This document shows, in pieces, positions 6,180 through 15,041 of a stretch of 26,524 nt of DNA. The stretch lies in the IMG/VR virus record IMGVR_UViG_3300030419_006744, positions 5,590 through 32,113 of that record. One strand, 5' to 3'. The notes beneath the pieces were generated by a model. The model was not told the origin of the DNA. It was given only the letters and a program-made list of their open reading frames with translations, and ran no database searches. Numbering within the stretch: the first letter of the stretch is position 1; every line of letters begins with the position of its first letter. The DNA comes from a virus. Made by a program: the position numbers and the translations under genes.

Positions 6180-7034
6180 TTAAACATTAATATCGTTTTT
6201 TTCACTTTGTATCATTGTAGTGTGTGTAAGGGAATACACATAATCTTCATCGTAGTCTGTTGCAAAAATCCCATACGAAGCCTTCACTAGACCACCGTCC
6301 GTCCTGTCTCTAACCTGCTGGGTTATCAACTTCAACAAGCCGCCATCTTCTTCAAGCTTCTTTCTGTTTAATGCATAATAGTATACCCTTTCTCTAGGTA
6401 AATTTAAATCAAAAAACAGTTTTTCTTCCGCATTTCTTATATCCATTACTCCGAACGTGGCAATACGTGCGGCAGTCATCGGACGAGAAAAAGTATTCAT
6501 TATCGATCGCGAATTCTTGAATATATTAACCATGTGAATAGTGTGAACAATCAAATTGTTAATCTTATCATGATAGCCAATAACCGGGATGTCGCCCAAT
6601 ATATCTTCGATCTTAGAATTATCAACGAGATATATCTTGCTTATAGCTGCAGATCTGGCATATTCCTGCAGAATGCCAAAAACAACTCTTTCCTGAAGAC
6701 GCTTGACTTCAGACAGCAACTCTGTCTCTGGCCTCACATACAGCACGCTAACATCTAAATGAGATAGCTGCTGCAAAACTCGCAGGGCTGCTCCAGAAAT
6801 TGTACCTGATCCGCCGAGAACCAATAAGCATGAAGTCTGTATGTTGCTAAAAAATTGTTTAAAATCTGGACAATTTTTTTCATACATCTCATGACTTTCT
6901 TGTTCAGGTAATAGAAACACATCTTCGCCGCTCCTCTCATCAGTATCAATTCGATATACTGTGTATTGAGGATAGCGCATGAATTTCTCAGCAATATTAC
7001 AGCCAGCTGTACCTAAGCCAACTATGTTTTCCAT
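6180..7034 (-). CDS. Divergent tubulin/FtsZ-superfamily GTPase-like protein
   Basis: 284 residues. The N-terminus reads IVGLGTAGCNIAEKF (4-18), the Rossmann-like first loop of FtsZ/tubulin. At 74-81 GGSGTISG occupies the place of the tubulin/FtsZ signature GGGTGTG. About 60 residues on, IYLVDNSKIEDIL (134-146) matches the FtsZ strand-loop containing the base-contacting Asn (here N139), and a long helix (159-181) follows in the position of H7. A clear catalytic T7 loop (N-x-D-x-x-D) is not visible, so GTP may be bound but poorly hydrolysed. If this is right, the protein could polymerise and act in DNA or capsid positioning, as phage PhuZ and TubZ do. It sits 12 nt after the Cys-rich gene and 82 nt before gp32. 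The ATG has AGAGG. A Rossmann-type nucleotide-binding protein is the main alternative. Confidence 0.6.
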   Translation of the reverse strand: MENIVGLGTAGCNIAEKFMRYPQYTVYRIDTDERSGEDVFLLPEQESHEMYEKNCPDFKQFFSNIQTSCLLVLGGSGTISGAALRVLQQLSHLDVSVLYVRPETELLSEVKRLQERVVFGILQEYARSAAISKIYLVDNSKIEDILGDIPVIGYHDKINNLIVHTIHMVNIFKNSRSIMNTFSRPMTAARIATFGVMDIRNAEEKLFFDLNLPRERVYYYALNRKKLEEDGGLLKLITQQVRDRTDGGLVKASYGIFATDYDEDYVYSLTHTTMIQSEKNDINV

Positions 7035-7046
7035 GTTGCCTCTTTC

Positions 7047-7193
7047 TTACTTCGTGGTCTTTTTACGAGGCCGGCCCCGGCGTCGAGCTACATTACAGGC
7101 TCCCTTGCAGCCCTCGCATGAGCAGCAGCCGCAGCAGCAGCAGCAATGTGATGAATTAAAAAGATTTCCTAATCTATGCAAAAATAGTCGCAT
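7047..7193 (-). CDS. 48-residue Cys-rich protein with AT-hook-like basic tail
   Basis: A short gene. It starts at ATG 7191-7193 with a near-perfect AGGAGG ten nt upstream and ends at TAA 7047-7049. After a 16-residue N-terminus (MRLFLHRLGNLFNSSH) come ten cysteines within 17 residues: CCCCCGCCSC (17-26), then EGC (29) and KGAC (33). The tail is basic, with RRRGRPRKK (37-45) containing the GRP core of an AT-hook. The Cys block could bind zinc or another metal as in metallothionein-like proteins, and the tail could sit in the minor groove of AT-rich DNA; both roles are inferred from composition. It directly precedes the tubulin-like gene (12 nt) and follows an ACTATTTA motif, so it is probably translated. 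I recognise no family. Confidence 0.75.
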   Translation of the reverse strand: MRLFLHRLGNLFNSSHCCCCCGCCSCEGCKGACNVARRRGRPRKKTTK

Positions 7194-7220
7194 TATAACT
7201 TTTCCTCCTGTGTTACATAT

Positions 7221-7228
7221 TAAATAGT
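7221..7228 (-). promoter_or_regulatory. ACTATTTA motif before the Cys-rich gene
   Basis: Exact copy one base past the polymerase stop codon, 27 nt before the ATG of the Cys-rich gene. Its flanks CTTTAAC and ATAT nearly repeat those of the copy at 4021. It could start a transcript covering the Cys-rich, tubulin-like and gp32-like genes, which ends at the terminator at 5296-5345. Confidence 0.5.
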
Positions 7229-7229
7229 G

Positions 7230-8411
7230 TTAAAGATTTAATTTCTTCATTTCTCTGAAATTTTTACCGGCGCTGACATTTACCTTAAAATCTCCCAGAC
7301 TACTGCTTCCAAATGCCTTAATAATATCTAATAACTTGTCTTTATCTTCTTCTTTGAAGTCTAAAACCACGCTATCATGGATACAAAAAGCTACAAAAGT
7401 ATCTAGATCAGATATGCTCTTGTTCAGCTGTATTAATTTTCTTAAGAAGAAGTCACTAGTTGTGCTTTGAATCAAGTAGTTTAGAGCATGATATTCATCG
7501 CTCTCTATGACCCTTTTAAAGGGGGTGGTTACCGCGCCATTGTTATGGTATTTTTTAAGAATTCTGTTTTTTGGAAATAATTTATCCAAAGCGTAGTTTT
7601 TCGCCATTGGATTATAGAGCCAAGAAAAAACTCGTTTTTTAGTCTCATCCCTGCTAAACTTGCCTCTAAACAGCTCCTTGTTTATGTAGGAGTGGATATC
7701 GCCTTCAGGCTGTTCAAGGCCTAGAAGGGCCCAAAAAACCCTCAATTCAGCTGCATTAAAATCTAGCTCTACAAACCAATCATTTTTAGGCTTTAAGATT
7801 TTTCGATATTCACGGTTAAAGGTTAGAACTGGAAAACTATTCTTAGTGGTGGTCAAACGTCCAGTTTTTGTGCCGAAAATATCATACTCTACATAAGGCA
7901 CTGACGTGGCTTGGCGTCGATAAAACTCCCTAGCTTTGATGCTACCTAGATCCAACTCTGTCAGATCAATATTTAAAGTTTGGTTTTTTATTTGATCAGT
8001 TAATTTTGTTAATTCAACCAAAAAATCATAATTCTCAGGCCTCTTGTAAGAAGAAAAAATATGCTCACATATTTTATCTTTAAGATAACAGTATTCTAAC
8101 AAAAACCTTTCTGGAACCAAATCATAAAAACAATTGTCTCTCAAAGAAATCTTGGCCGTGTTGAAGGAAATCATAAATGATTTAAGCTTGTTGTTAACGG
8201 CCTCCCATTCGTGTTTATACTCATCCGGACAAATCTTACCTAGATCAACATTCGAACAATATAAATTAGCATATTCTATATCTAAATCAGATAGATATGA
8301 TCCATAGCACCACGTCTTAGTAAGATCTATCGGCAAACTATCATAATGGATCTGGCCGTCGACATATACACCAACACATTCATTTTTGTCGTCTAAAGTT
8401 TGAAACAGCAT
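7230..8411 (-). CDS. Family A DNA polymerase, polymerase domain only
   Basis: A template-directed DNA polymerase of the Pol I/T7 family. Visible motifs: GTKTGRLTT (180-188); motif A VELDFNAAELRVF (214-226) with catalytic D217 and E222; motif B R254-x3-K258-x3-F262-x3-Y266; NYLIQSTTSDF (311-321); and motif C IHDSVVLDF (344-352) with catalytic D346. At 393 residues it is much shorter than Pol I or T7 polymerase, and no DxE-type 3'-5' exonuclease motifs are visible in the first 170 residues. Motif C reads HDS instead of the usual HDE. The ATG at 8411 has no clear Shine-Dalgarno and follows the upstream structural gene by 33 nt. Proofreading would have to come from another gene, or this may be a repair polymerase beside a second replicase outside the window. 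Confidence 0.9.
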   Translation of the reverse strand: MLFQTLDDKNECVGVYVDGQIHYDSLPIDLTKTWCYGSYLSDLDIEYANLYCSNVDLGKICPDEYKHEWEAVNNKLKSFMISFNTAKISLRDNCFYDLVPERFLLEYCYLKDKICEHIFSSYKRPENYDFLVELTKLTDQIKNQTLNIDLTELDLGSIKAREFYRRQATSVPYVEYDIFGTKTGRLTTTKNSFPVLTFNREYRKILKPKNDWFVELDFNAAELRVFWALLGLEQPEGDIHSYINKELFRGKFSRDETKKRVFSWLYNPMAKNYALDKLFPKNRILKKYHNNGAVTTPFKRVIESDEYHALNYLIQSTTSDFFLRKLIQLNKSISDLDTFVAFCIHDSVVLDFKEEDKDKLLDIIKAFGSSSLGDFKVNVSAGKNFREMKKLNL

Positions 8412-13517: not shown

Positions 13518-15041
13518 TTAGAGGAGCATCTTGTTGTGGACCAAGACGCCATCTGCAAAATAGTTTCTGTTATCTGAAACAGTAAAGTTGTATGTAGGTA
13601 TATCACCAGTTACGATTTCGTTGATTTCTGTTAGTGTTATTGTATCTCCACTATCAGTAATACATCTATCCCCCACTTCAATCAAACATGTGCCTTCAAG
13701 ATCTGTAGTCTTATAACGCGCAATGGTTAGATCAGGTTTATACGATGTCCATCCTTTCCCAACTACATAGTATGGGTGATCGTACGTATGTTGAGTTTTA
13801 ACGCCATTCGAGAACACAAACTCAACGATATCGCTATGCAATGGTTGCATCAACTCAAGAACAGACTTGGCCTCAGTTTCTTGAGTTTCTAAATTATAAG
13901 AGACAACCAAGTCACCAGCTTTTATATCTTCAATCTTAATGCTTTCTATCGTATTGTCAGGCCCGGGAACGCTGATCATTGTACCAGCAACAAAGCAAAC
14001 ACCCGCTGGAGCATCGCCGGTGGCTGCGCTTTCTTCACTGTTCTCTACGGCTTCATGCACTTCGCCGGCAGCATCTTGGCCGGCCACCTCTCCTCCGTCA
14101 CCAGCGGTCATTGCTTGATCCGCGCTACTGTCAGCTGCGGCGTTGTCGCCATCCCCATCTGCATCTGTTGGAGCACCTCCTCCGTCTGCGCCTTGCGCGC
14201 TGCCTCCAGCAGTATATGATTTCGACTTGGCATACGGAAAATTACTGAAACCGGAGCGAGGAGTGTGCGAAACAGTATATCCTAGCTCATGAGTATGCCA
14301 TACATGGAATGTTATATCCATACTAACTGATTGTGGATATATCTTGGCATGCTCTTCTAAAAGGTGGCCAGTGAAAACACCTTCATCCAAATTAGGGGTA
14401 TAGGTAATGCCAGCGATTCGCCCGGTGAGGCCTTGGGATTGTGCGCTGGGTGCTGGAGCACGGGATGAATCCTGTATTAGATTTGCTAACTTAAGCTTCC
14501 ACACTGGAGGAGATTGGATTATTCCCACGCTCGAACTCCACGATCCTGCCTTTACCGGTTCTATTTTATAAGTTGGATACAGACCTCGTATCAAAGCGGA
14601 GATCATTCTTTGATTTGCCCACGCTTCTTTGTTAGTTGCAGCCATAATATCAAAGCCCAAGTTGATAACTCTCTTTGTACCTTTAAATGTCTCGATCGGA
14701 TCCATTCTGCCATATACGTGTTCAGATGCCCACTCGGAAGAAAAGCTGTCATCAAATTTTGTCAGCCAGCAGCGAAAACGAATATTTGGGCTGTAAACAT
14801 TTCCGGCGTGTGTGTCGACCCGGGCATGCCTATCATGGTTGCCCCCAATATGTACAGGGTAGAACATAATATCATATTCCGGGCTGTATTGTTCGCCTCC
14901 AGAATAAAACTTATTTTGCGACACCCAGCGCCAGGAAGGAGAGTTTGGTGGATTACCAGGGCCTGCATCGCTTGTATCCGCGTCCTGCCACCAAGCTTTT
15001 GACCCCAATTCCGGCTCTTTTTCATCATCAAACCAAGACAT
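13518..15041 (-). CDS. Tail/baseplate protein with C-terminal Hint (intein-like) domain
   Basis: 507 residues in three parts. Residues 1-278 form a structural domain with a tail-tube-initiator-like segment (YGRMDPIETFKGTKRVINLG and the following helix ending GLYPTY). Residues 279-348 are a Gly/Ala/Asp-rich linker of low complexity. Residues 349-503 are a Hint domain: the N-terminal nucleophile is in CFVAGTMI (C349), then IEDIKAGDLVVSYN, block B as TYDHPYYV (T419, H422), and the C-terminal block NYFADGVLVHN with H502 and N503. Only KMLL follows. The +1 residue is Lys, not Cys/Ser/Thr, so normal splicing is unlikely; self-cleavage at either end remains possible. The arrangement resembles bacterial intein-like and toxin-associated HINT domains. 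The ATG has a strong CAGGAGG and ACTATTTA-like motifs upstream. Baseplate assignment is from context. Confidence 0.82.
   Translation of the reverse strand: MSWFDDEKEPELGSKAWWQDADTSDAGPGNPPNSPSWRWVSQNKFYSGGEQYSPEYDIMFYPVHIGGNHDRHARVDTHAGNVYSPNIRFRCWLTKFDDSFSSEWASEHVYGRMDPIETFKGTKRVINLGFDIMAATNKEAWANQRMISALIRGLYPTYKIEPVKAGSWSSSVGIIQSPPVWKLKLANLIQDSSRAPAPSAQSQGLTGRIAGITYTPNLDEGVFTGHLLEEHAKIYPQSVSMDITFHVWHTHELGYTVSHTPRSGFSNFPYAKSKSYTAGGSAQGADGGGAPTDADGDGDNAAADSSADQAMTAGDGGEVAGQDAAGEVHEAVENSEESAATGDAPAGVCFVAGTMISVPGPDNTIESIKIEDIKAGDLVVSYNLETQETEAKSVLELMQPLHSDIVEFVFSNGVKTQHTYDHPYYVVGKGWTSYKPDLTIARYKTTDLEGTCLIEVGDRCITDSGDTITLTEINEIVTGDIPTYNFTVSDNRNYFADGVLVHNKMLL

Follow-up and report, generated by a model that had tools for sequence, protein, structure and literature searches.

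The window (the whole stretch of DNA that was analysed, 26.5 kb) belongs to a 32,113-base virus record that encodes a T4-type capsid protein, sheath, UvsX/RecA, a gp32-type SSB and a DnaB-type helicase. The first matches listed for the capsid protein were about 40–52% identical over 250 aa; they include Flavobacterium phage immuto, Microcystis phage Mel-JY01 and Rhodothermus phage RM378, as well as two uncultured records of 484 and 595 kb. A 507-aa protein of the tail region (13518–15041, minus strand) has a C-terminus that appeared Hint/intein-like by eye (GVCFVAGT... ending HNKMLL).

The gene under study, here called X, encodes a 48-aa product, MRLFLHRLGNLFNSSHCCCCCGCCSCEGCKGACNVARRRGRPRKKTTK, and its ORF runs from 7193 to 7047 on the minus strand (Table 1); the plus-strand reading of the same segment contains stops. 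The preliminary description of this DNA had proposed an ORF with ten Cys followed by RRRGRPRKK, a Shine-Dalgarno sequence, a tight junction to the next gene and a candidate promoter. The ORF was recovered, although on the minus strand, with its ten Cys within residues 17–33, and so were the AGGAGG motif 10 nt before the ATG and the 12-nt gap (7035–7046) that separates X from the downstream gene. The promoter was not: a sigma-70-type scan of positions 6900–7500 gave no minus-strand site, and its single plus-strand match scored below the shuffle mean of 1.4. No RNA element of Rfam matched the locus. A gap of 36 nt separates X from the stop codon of the polymerase-like gene upstream. The downstream neighbour gave no PHROG or Pfam match and has 38 relatives among viral contigs; its 284-aa product, with a glycine-rich GLGTAGCN N-terminus, appeared faintly FtsZ/tubulin-like by eye.

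Table 1. Gene X, its parts and its immediate neighbours in the window.
Feature	Position	Strand	Basis
X, gene of a 48-aa Cys-cluster microprotein	7047–7193	minus	ORF and translation; relatives in frame
Shine-Dalgarno sequence of X, AGGAGG	7204–7209	minus	sequence; 10 nt before ATG
X residues 1–15, amphipathic helix MRLFLHRLGNLFNSS	7149–7193	minus	alignments; AF2 helix 2–11, low confidence
X residues 16–24, HCCCCCGCC block	7122–7148	minus	exact in 45/49 loci with the N-terminus plus His-Cys
X residues 25–33, SCEGCKGAC, last three Cys, spacing variable in the family	7095–7121	minus	family alignment
X residues 37–45, RRRGRPRKK, AT-hook-like tail	7059–7085	minus	Pfam AT_hook 11.6 bits; family comparison
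Upstream neighbour, DNA polymerase A-like protein	7230–8411	minus	DNA_pol_A 3.3e-13; phrog_17
Downstream neighbour, no family assigned	6180–7034	minus	relatives in IMG/VR without X beside them

X is a true member of a widespread, highly conserved family of phage microproteins. A protein-level scan of IMG/VR yielded nine relatives, and a DNA pattern for HCCCCCGCC yielded at least 80 loci, i.e. at least 79 besides the window, which overlap the nine. Family counts are based on the matches listed, comprising 80 rows (including the window) that correspond to 70 distinct proteins; they leave out L129, which has no start codon and is not a member, and a second, truncated copy in L107. In the latter record (minus strand) an intact X is closely followed by a degenerate second Cys block, an arrangement that resembles a decaying tandem duplication.

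The proteins of the family are about 31–49 aa long and share a helix signature at the N-terminus (MKx[FLIV]LH[KR]LxNLFN), followed by the HCCCCCGCC block and three more Cys. Where the N-terminus spans 15 residues (59 members), H6 is kept in 58, L8 in 57, F12 in 56, L11 in 54 and N13 in 50; H6, L8, L11 and F12 are thus near-invariant, and N10 and N13 are strongly conserved. The helix is strongly amphipathic (moment 0.59 vs 0.31 in other proteins). A Shine-Dalgarno-like motif precedes 75 of the 78 testable members, compared with 17% of 15,128 ATGs of the same loci. Where the preliminary description had pointed to stops or frameshifts in relatives as a test of the gene, we found the frame kept, with many synonymous changes. 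A chance ORF is ruled out by these in-frame relatives and synonymous changes together with a block-blind scan (below), and the view of X as a real, short, easily missed phage gene carrying a metal-binding-like block holds.

Since the HCCCCCGCC pattern had itself selected on the block, the block-blind scan used the helix signature followed by His-Cys. It produced 49 matches (44 known members, L187 and four variants), in 45 of which HCCCCCGCC is exact; L187 is cut at the block and was counted as exact via L160, which lies on a contig of equal length and reads HCCCCCGCC. Of the four variants, HCCCCCYCC and HCCCCCDCC belong to proteins with a total of ten Cys, HCCCCGTC and HCSCCCETC to proteins with nine. 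No match to the helix signature had A, G or T as the first base of codon 16, which indicates that helix and block form one unit. The total number of Cys is ten in 65 of the 70 distinct members. Exactly three of them follow the block in 65/70, four in four members and two in one, and their spacing varies (CxxxCC, CxxCxxxC, CCC and others). Both TGT and TGC occur at each of the seven Cys codons of the block in the 72 distinct DNA sequences. A number of Cys that is held while their spacing drifts would be expected of a metal-thiolate cluster rather than of a fixed zinc finger.

None of the 70 members had a significant match in Pfam, NCBIfam or PHROGs, the best stray matches having E values of 0.18 (AT_hook), 0.32, and 1.5 and above. 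Metallothionein models matched none of them at E up to 10, and the PDB contained no relative of X and no homologous metalloprotein. The AF2 model of X (pLDDT 61, pTM 0.28) comprises helix 2–11 and two short low-confidence helices, with no confident fold. Two further candidates were dropped: a beta-clamp-binding motif in LxNLF, whose register does not fit, and a RiPP precursor, given that core and leader are equally conserved and that the listed neighbour families include no modification enzyme. As far as our searches of the open-access literature show, the family is without an earlier description; the titles and abstract openings returned contain no account of it.

Metallothioneins, such as bacterial SmtA and yeast Cup1, are very small proteins with about 30% Cys and with CC and CxC motifs, in which the number of thiols is kept as their spacing drifts. 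X resembles them in its very small size, its CC/CxC motifs, its richness in Cys (ten in 31–49 aa in 65/70 members) and its steady number of thiols at drifting spacing. It differs from them in (i) the lack of a match to any Pfam metallothionein family, (ii) the nearly invariant run of five consecutive Cys plus Gly, which is stricter than in ordinary metallothioneins, and (iii) the fixed amphipathic N-terminal helix and a distribution that was phage-only in the searches made.

The X profile matched all 50 of the X-carrying records examined; 49 of them, among which are records of 284–289 kb, have just one copy. X is operonic: it shares its strand with the upstream gene in 73 of 74 loci, at a median gap of about 12 nt, and with the downstream gene in 66 of 73, where the latter often overlaps the stop codon of X. 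Across the family, the immediate neighbours form 58 different family pairs among the matches listed. Conserved synteny with the neighbours of the window was rejected: relatives of the two flanking genes occur in 28 records, three of which were already known to carry X, and X is present in none of the other 25 that were tested. X is therefore not tied to the locus of the window. In L111 and L136 it stands beside a different type of tail module (baseplate-J-like neighbours, judged by eye), and in L089, L109, L110 and L157 it lies within the head gene cluster, beside the portal gene gp20 and/or the prohead protease gene gp21.

A cellular origin of X was also rejected. Among 302 stretches encoding HCCCCCG in GTDB contigs there was a single relative of X, on a virus-like contig whose 101,404 bases equal the length of an IMG/VR virus record (L187); the bacterial family concerned has X in 1 of 129 genomes, and the gp23 of that MAG is on a different contig (C13) from X (C25). 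A tblastn search of isolate phages revealed no X and one irrelevant match, a weak negative since BLAST masks low complexity. In a profile search of five phage records similar by portal or capsid, X was found in none.

Many of the genes downstream of X, otherwise unrelated, were found to share one of two 14-residue N-terminal tags, a K type (MK[IL]TK..L..II[KR]E) or a W type (MK.[LI][LM]..W[RK].[YF][LI].E). With position 14 left free, Glu is present there in 82/83 distinct tags of the K type and in 22/27 of the W type. Counting one locus per distinct X, which partly removes the phylogenetic relatedness of loci, 28 of 58 genes next downstream of X (48%) were tagged, compared with 16 of 151 (11%) three to six positions upstream (Fisher p 1.4e-8). 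By position, the tagged fraction is 6–14% at three to six genes upstream, 23% just upstream and 48% just downstream, followed by 38, 33, 23, 23 and 20% further downstream. The false-positive rate of the tag detector was 1 in 2013 internal segments. Of the 70 thinned loci, 35 have a tag on one or both immediate neighbours and the other 35 on neither, and the 26.5 kb of the window contain no recognisable tagged gene. X thus tends to head arrays of tagged genes, an association that is new. One array of otherwise unrelated genes sharing N-terminal tags that end in [LI]xE extends over L160:4030–11413.

The tags look like capsid targeting sequences (CTSs) of injected head proteins of uncultured T4-like phages. 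Their [LI]xE end is in line with the known T4 cleavage rule, and a T4-type prohead protease is encoded in 27 of the 38 X-carrying records. A hydrophobic mask of positions 4, 5, 8, 11 and 12 fits 52 of 54 X N-termini as well as the W-type tag, compared with 2 of 442 untagged neighbours, while similarity of the X helix to the tags at the residue level is weak (AUC 0.63 and 0.76). The helix is without the Trp8 of the W-type tag, and no Glu14 is listed for any of the 59 members whose N-terminus has 15 residues, so that X would not be cleaved like the tagged proteins. It may bind the tag receptor without cleavage, or be merely another amphipathic helix. X is like the CTS-bearing internal head proteins of the T4 type (PMC3012670, PMC7411985) in its short N-terminal amphipathic helix, in its clustering with tagged genes and in the presence of a T4-type protease in most of the genomes. 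It is unlike them in having no cleavage-site Glu and in its body, which is a Cys cluster.

X is, in short, a conserved, single-copy, operon-embedded protein of 31–49 aa, composed of an amphipathic helix and a part with one His and about ten Cys. Metal-thiolate chemistry is most likely the basis of X, and the family probably binds metal. We tentatively favour, as a reading with a substantial chance of being wrong, a phage metal-thiolate (metallothionein-like) microprotein, docked by its helix on a phage partner and with a metal role in assembly or early infection. The Cys/His block would fold, in the manner of metallothioneins, around a small soft-metal cluster (Zn(II), Cu(I) or Fe(II)) in the reducing cytoplasm, and the conserved helix would attach this cluster to a single, specific partner from the phage. 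The best candidate for this partner would be the head-assembly core, as the recipient of the tagged proteins whose genes neighbour X, because the helix has the hydrophobic register of the tag of its neighbours. X could then deliver, hold or buffer metal while virions are assembled or early in infection. Docking of this kind leaves the locus of the window unexplained, since no recognisable tagged gene is present there, and X and the tagged genes may co-occur merely because both sit in variable islands.

It is possible, if somewhat doubtful, that X is instead a free cytoplasmic metal/redox buffer, a phage mini-metallothionein that protects the cell or supplies Zn/Cu to phage metalloenzymes, with a helix that touches the membrane or its partners loosely. 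The ten thiols kept with plastic spacing and the strong amphipathicity of the helix are consistent with such a buffer, as is the zinc-ribbon primase often found directly upstream of X (family F2 in 13 of 80 rows; Pfam DNAG_N/CHC2). In contrast, the single copy and the near-invariant helix, with its conserved polar residues, suggest a specific partner, as in the favoured reading.

An extension of the favoured reading, which we regard as unlikely, would make X a virion-targeted metal-thiolate cargo, which deeply branching T4-like phages of the sea would produce together with arrays of tagged proteins. An uncleaved form of the tag would dock X in the prohead, a preloaded metal cluster would travel with the genome, and in some lineages the AT-hook would hold X on the packaged DNA.

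A role in iron-sulphur or sulphur trafficking with phage IscU, IscA or NfuA, e.g. as a carrier of Fe or persulphide, is improbable on the present evidence. At least one of the three genes is present in 11 of 38 records with X and in 0 of 6 without it, and in six of these 11 records one of them lies no more than about 4 kb from X, compared with 1 of 27 for the control gp21 (distances measured by hand); in L090, IscU is about 45 nt from X. However, 27 of the 38 records are without all three genes, and among the six close cases L108, L125, L132 and L156 have neighbour families in common and may be one lineage, so that the independent events may number three. Cysteine synthase (CysK) is not linked likewise, being encoded in 7 of 38 records with X and near it in 1 of the 7, and the PDB has no Fe-S protein with the Cys pattern of X. 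We regard the link as a lead only. Phage-encoded IscU, IscA, NfuA and cysteine synthase were observed in L090, L108, L125, L160 and other records with X; IscU and A-type carriers encoded by marine T4-like genomes have already been described (PMC5332604).

We give a similarly small chance to a host-takeover or counter-defence peptide, with the helix on a host target and the Cys block as a structural knob. X is small and single-copy, its many different neighbour pairs are reminiscent of accessory phage genes, and it is absent from cells apart from the one virus-like contig. Nevertheless, it has no PADLOC or PHROG relative, the PADLOC result leading us to reject a known defence or counter-defence family, and its extreme conservation across unrelated phages is unlike that of fast-evolving counter-defence genes.

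The preliminary description had seen the defining trait of X in the combination of a metal block with a DNA-binding tail. This found no support, as RRRGRPRK is present in only 4 of the 70 distinct members (the window, L001/L102, L002/L003 and L006/L123), which also means that DNA binding is not the core function; the tail is a minority add-on of the family. It shares with the AT-hook (PF02178) an RGRP core with Arg and Lys flanks, in the window and the three relatives, and differs from it in scoring under the Pfam cut-off (11.6 vs 17.4 bits) and in being absent from 66/70 members. In the few members that carry it the tail does look selected, because over RRRGRPRK the window differs from each of the other tailed forms at 8 of 24 nt and at no amino acid. 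A primase or polymerase adjoins X in 4/4 tailed rows with a called upstream gene, compared with 12/70 untailed rows, two of these four tailed rows being near-identical, so that they stand for about two lineages; a fifth row (L102) is truncated by the end of its record. Primase and X are separated by a tagged gene in L001. We rejected the idea that a programmed stop or readthrough links the short forms to the long ones, as no hidden RRRGRPRK was found downstream in any frame in six short members ending in N- extensions (L082, L083, L084, L092, L120 and L138) and three others. In the window phage and its three relatives, the basic extension could tether the Cys knob to DNA, as an accessory trait.

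The tail, with its synonymous-only variation, and the adjoining primase or polymerase genes speak for the proposal of the preliminary description that the form in the window is a DNA-binding metal sensor or nucleoid effector, which the rarity of the tail, its AT_hook score and the small number of lineages nevertheless make very unlikely.

Dozens of unrelated contigs of marine phages carry X, with one copy per genome, and it is absent from PHROGs and from the isolates checked. Being so small, conserved, single-copy and widespread, it must serve a need of many ocean phages. Should it prove to bind metal, X would, as far as our searches show, represent a viral metal-thiolate protein not described before, with a bearing on the handling of Zn, Cu or Fe by phages in metal-poor water; if it were indeed a virion cargo, it would found a new class of viral protein. 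Through its link to arrays of capsid-tag-like genes, X offers a testable route to the proteins that uncultured T4-like phages inject, a set that is poorly known.
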